This document shows, one piece after another, positions 4,309 through 10,932 of a DNA stretch of 64,000 nucleotides (position 1 is the first letter of the stretch; the number at the start of each line of letters is the position of its first letter). The DNA lies in assembly GCF_039522665.1 (NCBI RefSeq), contig NZ_BAAADV010000001.1, positions 930,001-994,000 on the forward strand, read 5' to 3'. Below the pieces are notes generated by a model. The model was given only the letters and a program-made list of their open reading frames with translations. It made no database searches and was not told the origin of the DNA. A program made the position numbers and the translations under genes. The stretch is from Natronoarchaeum mannanilyticum. GTDB lineage: Archaea; Halobacteriota; Halobacteria; Halobacteriales; Natronoarchaeaceae.

Positions 4309-7300
4309 TTACTCGTCGGCGTCGGGCAGCGTCCGATTGGCGAGCGCCATCGGATCGGCGTCGTCGGGATCGAACGGCCGGAGCACGACGCTGAACGCGG
4401 TCGAGTCGACCGGGACCTGGTAGCGGTCGATCGGGTCGGTCGGCGTCCCGCCGACGCCGGTCACGCGGTGGTCGAGGTTGAACCCGACCGAGCCGCGCTC
4501 CTCCAGTTCGTACTGGTGCTCGGCCTCGTCGAGGTTCGCCCACTGTTCGAGGCTGACGTTGGCGTCCTCGTCGCCGGGCATCCCGAGCAGCGAGACGTCG
4601 CCGTCCGAGAGCGTCGCCCAGCGCGTCTGGGCCTTGTTCCCGTTGTCCGTCGGCGGCAGGTAGGGGACGTACTGCTCGTCGACCGAGCCAGCGTGGCGCC
4701 CGATCGGGACGCCCCACTTGCGGTCGGGGTAAGTCTCCAGCTCGCCGCGGCCGTACCACTCGAACTCCTCGAACCGCTCGGGCAGTTCGAGCTGGACGCC
4801 GACCTTCGGGAGCCATCCCGTCACCGCGTCGCGCAGCGGCGCGTTCGGATCGGCTTCGACGTCCATTCGCACGTCGCCACTCCCGTAGATCCGGTAGCGG
4901 TACTGCATCTCGAAGCCCATCTCCGTCGACTCGCCCTCCTCGAACTCGTCCAGTTCGTACCACAGCACCGTGCTCTCGGGCGGTTCGTCGAAGCCCGAGG
5001 AGATTTCGCTCGCCGACAGCGCCCGGTCGTAGATCCGCACCTCGTCGATCGTCGTCGCCGTGTACCGGTCGGTGTTCTCGGCGTTGTGCCCGACGTGGAC
5101 CGGGAACGACGACCGGTTGACGCTCGTCGCACCGTGACTACTGCTTCCCAGCAGCTCCCCGTCCAGGTACATCCGCAGTTCCCCGTCGGTCGCGACGCCG
5201 GTCAGCGTGTGCCACTCGTCCTCTGCGAGGTCAGCGGGCACCGGCTCGTTGAGCGTGATCCAGGTGTCCTGGTAGATGAAGAACTGGAGTTCGTTGCTGT
5301 CGGAGACCTTCAGCGCGTACTGGTGGTCGCCCTTGCTGACGAACGGGTTGTTCTGGCCGTTCGCGGGGAGCCCCTTGAATCGCACCTGGATCGTGAACTC
5401 CGGCGCGCCGAAGTCGAGGCTGGCGTCGTTGCCGGCGTCGATGTACTGGGACTCGCCGTCGAGCGCGACGGCCTGGCCGCTCTGGCCCGAGACGATCTCG
5501 GGGTCGCCGACGACCTCGCCGCCGTTCCCCTCGCCCGAGGCGTCCGGCGTAACCAGCGGCGGCGGGAGCTCGGTCCCCGCCGCGAAGCCGTCGACCGACA
5601 CCTCCACCAGCGAGTCGTCGAGCGCGTTCGTCTCGACGGACTCGACGGTGTGGGTCAGGTCGTCGAGGCCGGCGTCGTACCACGAGAGCGCGGGCGCCGA
5701 CCCCCACTGCTGGATCTCGTTCATGATCGGCGCGCGCCACGAGCTAAACAGCGGGCCGCGGTCGAGCAGCTCGCTGCCGTCGTACGCCATCGAGGATAGC
5801 GTCCCCGCGTCGGCGTCGACGACGTACTCGAACTCGTCGCCGGAAACTGTGATGTCGGCATCGCTCTCATCGACCGAGAGCGACGGCATGGCGTCGAGCG
5901 ATTCCGGCTCCGGCTCGGGCGCGTCGACGGGCATCTCCAACTGTTCGAAGGCGACCTCGTGGCCGGCGTCGGCGTAGTCGGTGTCTTCTGCGAGGGCGAA
6001 CCGCACCGTCAGCCGGTACTCGACGCCCGGCTCGGGGTCGGCGGGCACCTCGACGCCGAGGCCGACGCGGCGCGTCTCGCCCGGTTCGACGTCGACGTCG
6101 ATCTCGCCCGTCTCGATCGTCTCGTCGTCCGCGATCAGCTCCCACGACCCCTCCAGGGCGTCGAGGTCGGTGAAGTTGTAGCGGTTCGAGACGTAGATCT
6201 CGCCGTCCTCAACGGCGGCGTCGGCGACGCCGACCGGCTGGTGGGCGTGCTTGAGCTGCCACAGCTCGGGCTGGGGATCGCGATCGGACCAGACCAGCCC
6301 GTTGAGGCAGAACGCCCCGTCCGGGCCGTCGCTGTGGTAGAACTGGAACTTCTCGCCGTCCTCGGTGACGTCGTCGAGATCCTGGTTAACCCAGTCCCAG
6401 ATGAACCCGCCGACGAGGCTCTTGTCCCGCAGCAGGTCCGCGAAGTCGTAGGCCGCGACAGCGCCGTCGTCGAGCTCGCCGTCGGCGTCGCCCGCTTCGT
6501 CGGCGCTCACGGCGCGATCGTAGATGCCGACGCCGTCGACGGTGAGAGCCGCGTCGGCGTGGCGGCCCTCGCGACCGCGATCGGCGTCGCCGCCAATCCG
6601 AACCGGCCCATCGCCGGCCGGCAGGTCCGAGATGGAGTGGCCCACCGCGGCGACGCGTTCGCCGTCGACGTGGATCGCGAGTTCGCTCGCGTCCGCGACG
6701 CCGACCACCGTCGTCCAGTCGTCGAGCGCGCCGACAGGGAGCGACGCCGAAGCCGACGCCTCGCCGCCCGCGAGCGAGAACTCGATCTCGCCGTCCGAGA
6801 GCGTCAAGGCGTAGCGGTCGTCATCCACGACGACTGGCGCGTCGGCGCTCGCGTCGAGATCGTCGCCGCGGATCGTCGCGCCGACCGTGAGCCCGACGCC
6901 GACGTCGAGGCTCGCGTCGCGCCGGATCTCGATCGCGTCGCCGGCACCGAGGGCGACGGCGCCGTCGGTGTTCCCGCCCGGCGCGGCGTCCGGCCCGGGG
7001 ACGACCTCGGGCGAGCCGACGAGCGCGCCCGGATTGTCCGAGCCGCTCCGATCGGTCGCCTCTCGGACGGGCGGCTTGATGTGCTCGTTCCACATCTCGT
7101 GGACGAGCCCTAAGCTGTTGCCCATCGCGTGGTTGTACTCGCCCATCACGACCGGGCGGAGCCCGTCGCCGATGTAGGAGCCGTCGGCGACCGACAGGAT
7201 GGTGCCGACGTCGGGGTACCGCGGCCCGAGCATGTCGCCGTACTCGACGTTCCAGCCGCCGCCGTTGGGCTGGTGGTAGAGCAGTCGATCGGGCGCGAGC

Positions 7301-9231
7301 CCCTCCACCGCCCCGTCGAAGGACTCGACGTTGCTGACGCCGGCGACGTCCGAGGTGTCCGCGGGGATGTACTCGTCGGAGTCGGCCGCCATCGACGCCA
7401 TCTCCAGGTGCTCGGCGCCGGTGCCGGCCTCATTCCCGGTCGACCAGCTGAAGATCGACGCGTGGTTGCGATCACGGAGCACCATCCGGCGGAACTGCGA
7501 GACGGCCTGGTCGTGGTAGACCTCGGTGTTCGCGAGCAGACCGCCCCACCAGTGGGTCTCGACGCAGACCTCGTCCTGCACGTAGACGCCGTACTCGTCG
7601 GCGAGCCGGTACAGCGACGGGTCGTTCGGGTAGTGGGAGGTCCGGATCGAGTTGACGTTGAACCGCTTCATCGTCTCGATGTCTTCCCGTACCCGGTCGA
7701 TCGGGACCGTCCGGCCGAAGTCGGGGTCGGTCTCGTGGCGGTTCACGCCCTGGATGTCGACCGGCTCCCCGTTGACCAGCACCTCTGCGCCCTGCTGGCC
7801 GCGGGTCGTCTCGAAGGTGCGGAAGCCGACCTTCTCCAGCATCGCCTCGGTCGTCCGGCCGTCGGCGTCGACGAGCTCCAGCGCGAGCTGGTAGAGGTTC
7901 GGATGCTCGGCCGACCACTTGTCGGGATCCTCGACGTCGGCGTCGAGCGAGACGACGGCGCCGTCCTCGTCGACGGTCGCGGTCGCCTCGATCGTCGTGA
8001 CCTTGCGCCCGCGCGGCGGGTTGTCGCCCGGACCGCGCCCGTGCGGCGGGCCGCCTCGTTCGCCGGGACCGCGGCCGTCGGGCGGGCCGCGTTCCCTCGA
8101 CTTGTCGTGTCCCTTCTTCTTGCCGTTGCCACGCTTTGCCGCGTTCGCTCTTCCCTTCCCGCGCGGCGGGCCGCGCCCCGGCTTCGTCCGGTCGGTCTCG
8201 TAGAGGTGCGCGCGCACCTCGTACTCCCCCGCGGGCGCGTCGCCGTAGTTGGCGATCTCGGCGTCGATCCGGAGTTGGCCGTCCTCGTAGTCGTCGTCGA
8301 GGTCGGTCCGCGCGTAGAAGTCCCGGAGGTGGACCGTCGGCGTCGCGAACAGGTAGACGCTCCGGAAGATGCCGGCGTACCGGAACATGTCGATCGTCTC
8401 CAGGGCCTCGCTGTCGGCCCAGCGGTACACCTGTACCGTCACCTGGTGGTCGCCGCCGGCTTCGACGTGGTCGCCGACGCCGAACTCGGCGGGCGTCATC
8501 GAGCCGGTGCGGAAGCCGACGTACTCGCCGTCGACCCACACGAAGAAGGCCTGCTTGACCCCCTCGAAGTGCAGGAACGTCTCCCGGCCGTCCCACTCGG
8601 CGGGCACCGAGAACTCTCGTCGGTAGGTTCCAACGGGGTCGAGGCCGTCGTCGTCGACGCCGGGGACGTCGACGGTGCCGTCGTCGCCGGGGACGAGCTC
8701 GCCGTCCTGTCCCGGCTCGTAGACGTCCCACGTGATCGAGTTGTTCGTGTAGATCCGCTGGTCGTACCCCTGCGTCTGCCAGACGCCGGGGACGTCGATC
8801 GATCCCCAGTCGTCGGCCCCGAGGTCGTCGTACGAGTCGGGGAGGTCGTCGGGATTCTCGTGGAACGCGAACTGCCACTCTCCGTTGAGCAGCCGGACGT
8901 ACTCGGACTCGGCGAACCGCGCTTCGAGTTCGGTGAACGGCTCGTCGGCCTGCCGGGCCGCCCGTACGGATCCGTAGGGGACCGCGGTGGTGACGTGTGT
9001 CGGTTCGACGTTCTCCGCGACCGTCTCGGGATCCTCGAGATACGCCGCGAGGTTCGAGATCCGGCCGGGGTCGCCCGGCCCGTCCGACGGCGCCGCGGCG
9101 CCGGACTGGGCGCCGACGCCCGCCGCCAGCGCCGCCATCCCGGTCGCCTGCAGGAACTTCCGTCGCGTCGGCGAGAGCCGATCGCGAGGTGACTGTTCGG
9201 TCTCCGCCTCCCGTCGCTGTGAGTCGCTCAT
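4309..9231 (-). CDS. Secreted GH2 beta-galactosidase with two nested LamG-like domains
   Basis: The 1640-aa protein is a LacZ-like glycoside hydrolase family 2 enzyme exported by the Tat route: TRRKFLQAT precedes a hydrophobic Ala/Gly stretch (residues about 23-48), with no lipobox Cys. The sugar-binding, Ig-like and TIM-barrel domains follow in order. Glu601 in STGNEAGTG is the expected acid/base, Glu698 in MGEYNHAMGNSLG the nucleophile, and the metal-site region reads DEVCVETHW. About 200 residues with LamG features (about 738-930) interrupt the barrel before GGFIWDWVNQ, and a second LamG-like domain (about 1230-1415) interrupts the C-terminal Bgal_small region. A basic Gly/Pro/Arg-rich insert occupies residues 349-408. 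The start at 9231 sits just before the Tat signal; the upstream 9300-9380 stretch is AT-rich and may hold the promoter. The substrate (beta-galactosides of algal or plant origin) is inferred. Confidence 0.9.
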   Translation of the reverse strand: MSDSQRREAETEQSPRDRLSPTRRKFLQATGMAALAAGVGAQSGAAAPSDGPGDPGRISNLAAYLEDPETVAENVEPTHVTTAVPYGSVRAARQADEPFTELEARFAESEYVRLLNGEWQFAFHENPDDLPDSYDDLGADDWGSIDVPGVWQTQGYDQRIYTNNSITWDVYEPGQDGELVPGDDGTVDVPGVDDDGLDPVGTYRREFSVPAEWDGRETFLHFEGVKQAFFVWVDGEYVGFRTGSMTPAEFGVGDHVEAGGDHQVTVQVYRWADSEALETIDMFRYAGIFRSVYLFATPTVHLRDFYARTDLDDDYEDGQLRIDAEIANYGDAPAGEYEVRAHLYETDRTKPGRGPPRGKGRANAAKRGNGKKKGHDKSRERGPPDGRGPGERGGPPHGRGPGDNPPRGRKVTTIEATATVDEDGAVVSLDADVEDPDKWSAEHPNLYQLALELVDADGRTTEAMLEKVGFRTFETTRGQQGAEVLVNGEPVDIQGVNRHETDPDFGRTVPIDRVREDIETMKRFNVNSIRTSHYPNDPSLYRLADEYGVYVQDEVCVETHWWGGLLANTEVYHDQAVSQFRRMVLRDRNHASIFSWSTGNEAGTGAEHLEMASMAADSDEYIPADTSDVAGVSNVESFDGAVEGLAPDRLLYHQPNGGGWNVEYGDMLGPRYPDVGTILSVADGSYIGDGLRPVVMGEYNHAMGNSLGLVHEMWNEHIKPPVREATDRSGSDNPGALVGSPEVVPGPDAAPGGNTDGAVALGAGDAIEIRRDASLDVGVGLTVGATIRGDDLDASADAPVVVDDDRYALTLSDGEIEFSLAGGEASASASLPVGALDDWTTVVGVADASELAIHVDGERVAAVGHSISDLPAGDGPVRIGGDADRGREGRHADAALTVDGVGIYDRAVSADEAGDADGELDDGAVAAYDFADLLRDKSLVGGFIWDWVNQDLDDVTEDGEKFQFYHSDGPDGAFCLNGLVWSDRDPQPELWQLKHAHQPVGVADAAVEDGEIYVSNRYNFTDLDALEGSWELIADDETIETGEIDVDVEPGETRRVGLGVEVPADPEPGVEYRLTVRFALAEDTDYADAGHEVAFEQLEMPVDAPEPEPESLDAMPSLSVDESDADITVSGDEFEYVVDADAGTLSSMAYDGSELLDRGPLFSSWRAPIMNEIQQWGSAPALSWYDAGLDDLTHTVESVETNALDDSLVEVSVDGFAAGTELPPPLVTPDASGEGNGGEVVGDPEIVSGQSGQAVALDGESQYIDAGNDASLDFGAPEFTIQVRFKGLPANGQNNPFVSKGDHQYALKVSDSNELQFFIYQDTWITLNEPVPADLAEDEWHTLTGVATDGELRMYLDGELLGSSSHGATSVNRSSFPVHVGHNAENTDRYTATTIDEVRIYDRALSASEISSGFDEPPESTVLWYELDEFEEGESTEMGFEMQYRYRIYGSGDVRMDVEADPNAPLRDAVTGWLPKVGVQLELPERFEEFEWYGRGELETYPDRKWGVPIGRHAGSVDEQYVPYLPPTDNGNKAQTRWATLSDGDVSLLGMPGDEDANVSLEQWANLDEAEHQYELEERGSVGFNLDHRVTGVGGTPTDPIDRYQVPVDSTAFSVVLRPFDPDDADPMALANRTLPDADE

Positions 9232-9476
9232 GGTGGTAGTATCGTTCGGTCGGCGAGGCGACCCGCGATGGCTATTAGCCTTCCCCCTGGAGTGCACGGT
9301 CGCGGAGTCGCGCTCGGCCTGTTACGATTATTTGCAATTACTTACTTAATACTAACAATCACTAGAAATTCCATCATGTATGGGTGTAAGCCATCACCGA
9401 AAACAAGTGCGAATGGCAATCGAACCGGTGGCCGGGTTCCGACAGCGAAAAGGCCGGGCGGATCGAACGGGCACGC

Positions 9477-9794
9477 ATGGCTTCCATCGGCGCGGTCGCG
9501 GGACTGCTGTTCGTCGTCGCCCTGCACACGGTGATCGCGGCGGTCGCGACGCGGTTTTTCCGGATCAGTCTCGACACCGTCTGGGGTTCGGCGGTGTACG
9601 CCGTCCTGTTCGTCCCGATGCTGCTGATCGCGAGCACGCTCGTCCTGACCGGCGCGCTGGGGCTCGGCGGGAACCTCGGCAGCAAGACGACGGCGGTGTT
9701 GCTGGTCATCGCGATCCCGCTGACGCTCGGGTTCGCCATCGACCTGCTGTGGATGCCCGACCCCGAGACCGTCGAACTGCCGAAGAAGACCTGA
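9477..9794 (+). CDS. Small membrane protein, unknown function
   Basis: The 105-aa product has three hydrophobic segments (about residues 3-25, 38-62 and 70-92) and ends in a short charged tail, PDPETVELPKKT. Nothing links it to a known family. The ATG at 9477 gives a hydrophobic N-terminus with no extension. It is separated from the beta-galactosidase by a 245-nt divergent intergenic region that is notably AT-rich between 9320 and 9375, so both genes may be driven from it. Confidence 0.7.
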   Translation: MASIGAVAGLLFVVALHTVIAAVATRFFRISLDTVWGSAVYAVLFVPMLLIASTLVLTGALGLGGNLGSKTTAVLLVIAIPLTLGFAIDLLWMPDPETVELPKKT

Positions 9795-9951
9795 GAGGCG
9801 GGCGATCCGGCGGCGTCGTCGGGCGTCGAGACGCCGACGACGAGCTGGCGCCGTATTTTAAACTATCGCCGGCGTTCGGGCGCAATCACCCGACGCGAGC
9901 GCGACGTAGACGCCACAACCCCTAAATAGAGCGAATTACTTACGTACGGGT

Positions 9952-10932
9952 ATGTCCCGGTCTGCGCTGGTCGGCAACGTCGTCGCCATGCTCGAGGACG
10001 CGGGTTTCGCGGTGAGCGACCGCTGTGCGATCCGTCCGCGGAGCTTCGACGTCGCCGCCCGCCGGGGAGAAGACCTGGTGTTGCTGAAGATCCTGCGGAA
10101 CGTCGACGCGTTCGACGCCGAGACGGGCCAGGAGATGCGCCGCATCGGCGCGTACCTCGACGCGACGCCGCTGGTCGTCGGCCTGCGGACGCGCGACGAG
10201 GAGCTCAAGCCCGAGGTCGTGTACTTCCGCCACGGCGTCCCGGCGCTGAGCCCCGACACCGCGATGGACCTGTTCGTCGAGGAGCTCCCGCCGCTGATCT
10301 ACGCCGCCCCCGGCGGCCTGTACGTCAGCATCGACAGCGAGATCCTCGAAGACAAGCGCGAGGAACGCGGTTGGAGCCTCGGCCAACTGGCCTCGGAGCT
10401 GGGGGTTTCGCGACGCACCGTCTCGAAGTACGAGGACGGGATGAACGCCTCCATCGAGGTCGCGATGCAGTTAGAGGAGATGTTCGGCTCCGGGCTGACC
10501 AGCCCGGTCGACGTGCTCGACGGCGCCGAGGAGGTCCGCGACGAGGACCCGACGCCGAACGAACCCGACGCCGACCCCGACGACGAGCGCATCGTCACGG
10601 TGATGACCCAGGCGGGCTACGACGTCCACCCGACGCTGCGCGCGCCGTTCAAAGCCGTCAGCGAGGAAGCCGAGGACGCCGACCCCGCCGAGGGGACGGT
10701 GCTGACGGGCCACTCGGAGTTCACCCGCGCCGCCGAGAAACGCGCCAAGATCATGGGCTCGCTGGGCCGAGTGGTGGGGACGCGCTCTGTGTACTTCGTC
10801 GACAGCACCAAGCGCGACTCCGTCGAGGGCACCGCGCTCATCGAGCGCGAGGAGGCCGAGTCGATCGACGACCCCGACGAGTTCCGCGACCTGCTCCGCG
10901 AGCGGACGGACTACGAAGAAGAACCGGCCTAG
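9952..10932 (+). CDS. Archaeal HTH-type transcriptional regulator (Xre-like)
   Basis: This 326-aa protein matches the archaeal family annotated as putative HTH-type transcriptional regulatory protein. The N-terminal third resembles a nuclease-like fold ([19 protein letters not shown]). The Xre-type helix-turn-helix follows at about residues 130-185, with [20 protein letters not shown] as its core, and then an acidic linker and a conserved C-terminal domain. The target genes are unknown. The start is supported by an AT-rich stretch (TAAATAGAG at about 9922) roughly 28 nt upstream. It lies before the hairpin-rich block and is not in an obvious operon. Confidence 0.85.

Follow-up and report, generated by a model that had tools for sequence, protein, structure and literature searches.

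The locus raises the question of how a beta-galactosidase comes to hold two whole LamG domains within its own folds, and what such domains might do there. The gene lies in a 64,000-nucleotide stretch of the Natronoarchaeum mannanilyticum genome, referred to below as the window. A minus-strand ORF, 4309-9297(-), with its ATG start at 9231, encodes a protein of 1640 amino acids. Pfam found the GH2_N, GH2, GH2_C, LacZ_4 and Bgal_small domains in it, all in that order, yet two of the matches are interrupted: Glyco_hydro_2_C was matched in two pieces (483-715 and a C-terminal piece) and the Bgal_small_N match is split, with its best piece at 1438-1617. The features of the gene, from the N terminus onwards, are as follows.

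4309..9231, minus strand: entire gene, encoding a LacZ-type GH2 beta-galactosidase that carries two nested LamGs (ORF, translation, Pfam)
9082..9231, minus strand: N-terminal region with the twin-arginine motif SPTRRKFLQATG (RRKFL, residues 23-27), predicted Tat export (sequence)
8338..8895, minus strand: Glyco_hydro_2_N sugar-binding domain, residues 113-298 (Pfam)
8002..8190, minus strand: low-complexity loop of basic, RG/GP-rich composition within domain 2, residues about 348-410, K+R 26% (sequence)
7819..8010, minus strand: Glyco_hydro_2 (domain 2, Ig-like), residues 408-471 (Pfam)
7084..7818, minus strand: TIM barrel part 1, residues 472-716, with GNEAG (E601, presumed acid/base) and E698 (presumed nucleophile) (Pfam, alignment, motifs)
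6436..7083, minus strand: LamG1, nested at 'site B' (alpha7-beta8 loop), residues 717-932 (profile match, alignment, model)
6202..6435, minus strand: TIM barrel part 2, residues 933-1010, beta8 GGFIWDWV and FCLNG (sequence reading, alignment)
5917..6201, minus strand: LacZ_4 domain, residues 1011-1105 (Pfam match 1013-1100)
5566..5853, minus strand: domain 5 / Bgal_small part 1, residues 1127-1222 (Pfam, alignment)
4924..5565, minus strand: nested LamG2, residues about 1223-1436, in a domain-5 beta-hairpin, 'site C' (Pfam, alignment, model)
4357..4923, minus strand: domain 5 / Bgal_small part 2, residues about 1437-1625 (Pfam, alignment)

The enzyme around the inserts is of a familiar kind. 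E601 lies within GNEAG and E698 is the glutamate of GEY (GEYNH); by the roles of their LacZ counterparts we take E601 to be the acid/base and E698 the nucleophile, as the first-pass annotation of this DNA had already named it. The motifs NRHE, SHYP, ETH, WDW and FCLNG, presumably the metal- and galactose-site motifs of LacZ, were all located, and the catalytic residues appear to be intact. The tryptophan is missing from GVGGTPTDP, the segment we take to match LacZ Trp999, and the preferred substrate may accordingly be other than lactose. The matches to NCBIfam LacZ equivalog models fall under the full-length cut-offs of those models, and the best PDB matches of the core model in Foldseek were the LacZ-type enzymes 6sd0, 9m0e and E. 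coli LacZ. Tat export is deduced from the motif, since the Pfam TAT_signal match (E 0.034) falls under that model's cut-off. We therefore describe the protein as a LacZ-like GH2 enzyme, apparently of Tat type and predicted to hydrolyse beta-galactosides; the 1640-residue secreted enzyme proposed at first pass stands, with secretion predicted from the twin-arginine motif.

Alignment with insert-free GH2 homologues placed the extra residues at 717-932 and about 1222-1440. Laminin_G_3 (PF13385) matched two stretches of the protein (E 2.3e-37), and a search of its own genome located the two LamG matches at 934999-935460 and 936496-936948 of contig C1, both above the curated cut-off (86.6 and 55.4 bits against 27.6). 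Residues 446-1632 were modelled with AlphaFold2 from 33 sequences (mean pLDDT 80.1); in the result, LamG1 is bordered by helix alpha7 (710-718) and strand beta8 (939-944), and LamG2 sits between two long domain-5 strands (1208-1221 and 1437-1449). The strands of LamG1 are visible in this 1187-residue model at lower confidence; LamG2 modelled alone reached a pLDDT of 95.7 and a pTM of 0.92, with its end strands at residues 4-6 and 199-203. Both inserts are thus predicted to be autonomous beta-sandwich jelly rolls. Profile, alignment and model together bear out the first reading of two separate LamG-like domains nested in the barrel and Bgal_small, and the shared ending on which it drew is present as IYDRAVSADE and IYDRALSASE. 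The PDB neighbours of LamG2 are generic jelly rolls (TM 0.55-0.70), among them domain 4 of AbnA and the CBM40 of the R. gnavus IT-sialidase, and its structural matches also include viral LamG-like proteins. Both inserts are strongly acidic (D+E 18-20%), and LamG1 is divergent, with a weaker Pfam match and loss of the KGDHQYALK motif. The RG-rich loop forms a third insert, overlooked at first pass, within Ig-like domain 2, its basic composition contrasting with an otherwise very acidic enzyme; L087 and most of the double-nested relatives have it, and L072 and L073 lack it.

The active site of a TIM barrel lies at the beta-to-alpha loops. Because LamG1 is inserted at alpha7-beta8, the topology predicts that it stands on the far face of the barrel, away from the active site, and the earlier suggestion of binding modules close to the active site is not supported for this domain. 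Neither site B nor site C, the latter in domain 5, is in a beta-to-alpha barrel loop.

A search of the genome collection returned 26 loci. Locally built domain profiles and direct sequence reading showed three nesting sites in GH2 relatives. Site A is the beta8-alpha8 loop, after GGFIWDWVNQ and before FCxNG, on the active-site side; it holds a LamG in loci from KSB1, Bacteroidota, Planctomycetes and Paenibacillus and in haloarchaea of the Haladaptatus/Halocatena type. Only haloarchaea had a LamG at site B, which precedes GGFIWDWV, and a LamG at site C was always accompanied by one at site B, in the sequences collected. Barrel nesting is therefore not unique to the window gene, related bacteria carrying a LamG beside beta8, and the first-pass remark that a terminal position is the normal one for LamG domains of such enzymes was too strong, nested LamGs being common among LacZ relatives. 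Nor do the bacterial LamG and LamG1 of the window share one site: sequence reading puts them after and before GGFIWDWV, respectively. Site A and site B LamGs also fall in different clades of the LamG tree, which fits separate acquisitions and does not support a move from A to B. The idea that LamG2 arose simply by copying LamG1 within this protein is likewise unsupported: the B and C2 LamGs belong to one broad clade, but their sister relation is weak (64/32), and C1 lies elsewhere (C1 and C2, defined below, are groups of site-C LamGs).

The double-nested form is not universal in haloarchaeal GH2 enzymes. Among 293 genomes of the order, the C-terminal query matched in 39 and the double form was present in 12; most haloarchaeal LacZ paralogues there have neither nested LamG. 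In the family to which the window genome belongs, of which 9 genomes were sampled, no other genome showed the double form, the only congener giving a weak LamG-type match, whereas the genes of G254 and G239, from another family, are 80-92% identical to the window gene over most core segments; the distribution is therefore patchy. In a sample of 296 Bacteroidota genomes, no double form of about 1600 amino acids with a LamG directly before D5b was found.

Several further arrangements were observed. Site-A genes of the Haladaptatus/Halocatena type consist of two adjacent ORFs (L015:5944-8985 and 8981-10663; also L016, L023, L087, L088, L090, L091 and L099), the break falling between domain 4 and Bgal_small in an arrangement reminiscent of LacL/LacM, and some of the small subunits have about 230 additional C-terminal residues. 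Both nested-LamG GH2 copies of genome G155 (L079 on contig C2, L081 on contig C29) are frame-broken, through decay or assembly errors. The window organism's genome (3.57 Mb, 10 contigs) contains four LamG_3 matches, two of them in the window gene; the other two stand in tandem at the N terminus of a GH2-family protein, L108:11016-15245 (+), at about 283,000-287,200 of contig C8, a conventional placement also represented by the related proteins of L094 and L098. At 80000-90000 of contig C8 (L109) are two adjacent minus-strand GH2-like ORFs, one with an in-frame TAG that possibly marks a pseudogene or a gene end.

A tree of 58 LamGs separated the site-C domains into two non-sister groups: C1 (L007, L009, L012, L075, L080) and C2 (the window, L070-L073 and L076-L078), the latter weakly held together. 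The site-B LamGs of double forms broadly track the enzyme. In a core tree built without LamG columns, the window, L070 and L071 (all C2) form a clade with L075, L007 and L009 (all C1) at 100 SH-aLRT; L012 and L080 (C1) fall outside it. Within this clade, window and L075 are 87% identical in the N domain, 79% in Ig, 90% in barrel 1, 72% in LamG1, 91% in barrel 2, 80% in D4, 74% in D5a and 83% in D5b, so that core segments flanking both inserts range from 74 to 91%, against 41% in LamG2, a domain in which window and L070 are 86% identical. The DNA behaves in the same way, identity between window and L075 dropping over codons 1211-1450, from 70-82% to 55-65%, and returning to 90% by codon 1481; identity thus breaks near the borders of LamG2. 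Forcing the six site-C LamGs of the clade together cost 162 log-likelihood units (AU test, p 1.8e-50) and forcing all eight together cost 26 (p 0.013), p-values that are indicative because the groups were picked after the trees had been seen. Given the contrast between core flanks and LamG2 and the rejection of a single clade, the module was therefore either exchanged or, from a tandem arrangement, lost differentially. In either case the nested site-C module appears to have been replaced or differentially retained, leaving the surrounding enzyme undisturbed.

We consider the tandem alternative, in which an ancestor carried both site-C types side by side and its descendants lost one each without any exchange, rather unlikely. 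Identity within each type does look vertical (69% between L075 and L012 for C1, 57% between the window and L072 for C2, near the values of the D5 flanks), but no protein with two site-C LamGs occurs among the sequences collected, and the scenario calls for several separate losses, each of them cleanly bordered. A mosaic created by gene conversion or by mis-assembly of paralogues in some genomes might be suspected from the two frame-broken copies in G155. This is very improbable, and largely refuted by independent genomes: the C2-type pattern of the window is shared by three (G000, G254 and G239), and C1 is represented by five sequences, some of them Haloferax and Natrinema records drawn from a different collection. 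The broader proposition, that surface turns of LacZ-type GH2 enzymes serve as docking sites in evolution, related LamGs having entered at least three nested positions, and that in domain 5 haloarchaeal genes trade whole modules, breaking at the module borders and so retargeting an otherwise unchanged enzyme, we regard as evenly poised.

It is also conceivable, if doubtful, that the inserts are structural rather than sugar-binding, shaping an oligomer interface or stabilizing a halophilic enzyme. LacZ enzymes are oligomeric, LamG1 has diverged strongly, site B lies on the far side of the barrel from the active site, and the acidity of both inserts would suit such a role. However, haloarchaeal LacZ paralogues without inserts exist (L108_m1, L095-L097), so haloadaptation does not need them, and the complete replacement of the site-C module amid unaltered surroundings argues against a role in tight packing.

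The window gene lies outside any sugar cluster, its downstream neighbour encoding a dehydrogenase E1 component and the neighbour at its other end an HTH protein, which counts against a role in polysaccharide use. Near orthologues have other company: in G254 a GH115, an oligogalacturonate-lyase family protein, a DUF2264 protein, a beta-helix protein, UxuA and a second LacZ-like GH2, and in G116 an alpha-L-fucosidase, a sugar-binding protein and a GH5. The G254 gene, the closest relative, lies in a pectin/uronic-acid-type cluster (L110:1670-11130 on contig C2), where the LacZ paralogue has no inserts. Single-insert relatives neighbour GH3-CBM6, GH97, Gfo/Idh and MalK-type sugar ABC ATPases. As orthologues adjoin polysaccharide genes, we propose an exported exo-beta-galactosidase acting on polysaccharide side chains, in which the LamGs are putative carbohydrate-binding modules. 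LamG_3 is, on the other side, a generic fold family with many members that do not bind sugar.

Our preferred reading, to which we assign a probability of roughly 0.6, is that of an exported exo-beta-galactosidase with nested CBM-like LamGs and a swap between LamG types at site C. Working outside the cell, the enzyme would cleave galactosyl residues off fragments of plant or algal polysaccharides, the two jelly rolls serving as targeting modules of carbohydrate-binding type. The adjacent N and C ends of a LamG would fit surface turns without disturbing the catalytic fold, and the surface turns of this GH2 clade may have served as acceptor sites, one LamG lineage settling at site A, another at site B, and site C being filled later. 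At site C, one LamG type would have been swapped for another within a vertically inherited enzyme, and the modules would thus probably tune which polymer the enzyme adheres to, not its mode of cleavage. LamG1, being divergent, may be a spacer.

The window enzyme shares with LacZ-type GH2 enzymes (E. coli LacZ, T. maritima 6s6z/6sd0 and P. barengoltzii 9m0e) the five domains, the catalytic glutamates, the metal/galactose-site motifs and the predicted fold. It differs in its two nested LamGs, its RG-rich loop, its length (1640 against about 1000 residues), its predicted Tat export and the lack of a Trp999 equivalent at GVGGTPTDP. The site-A enzymes (among L013-L026) belong to the same GH2 clade and have a related LamG nested beside beta8, but theirs follows beta8 where that of the window precedes it, and they have none in domain 5. 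Nature therefore offers variants with no insert, with one insert on either side of beta8 and with two inserts of different types, a series suited to testing whether nested modules alter polymer targeting without altering catalysis, and to the study of whole-domain insertion and exchange inside other domains.

A search of the open-access literature found nothing on LamG nested in GH2, and a sequence search gave no LamG match in the GH2 PDB entries listed (about 570-1084 residues). Nested binding modules are already known in GH10 and GH13; the LamG-in-GH2 case appears, on this slender evidence, to be undescribed. In the GH10 xylanase Xyn10C/Pm25, CBM4 modules are nested in the TIM barrel at beta3-alpha3, on the active-site side; homologues differ in how many such modules they carry and from which family, and binding was shown experimentally (PMC7848910). 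That enzyme likewise has insertions in a barrel loop, but differs from the window enzyme in the side of the loop and in GH and CBM families. The alpha-amylase SusG has a CBM58 nested in its B domain that is needed for insoluble substrate (PMC5735674); there too an autonomous module is held on two short linkers, although in a GH13 enzyme, as a single module and with another fold.
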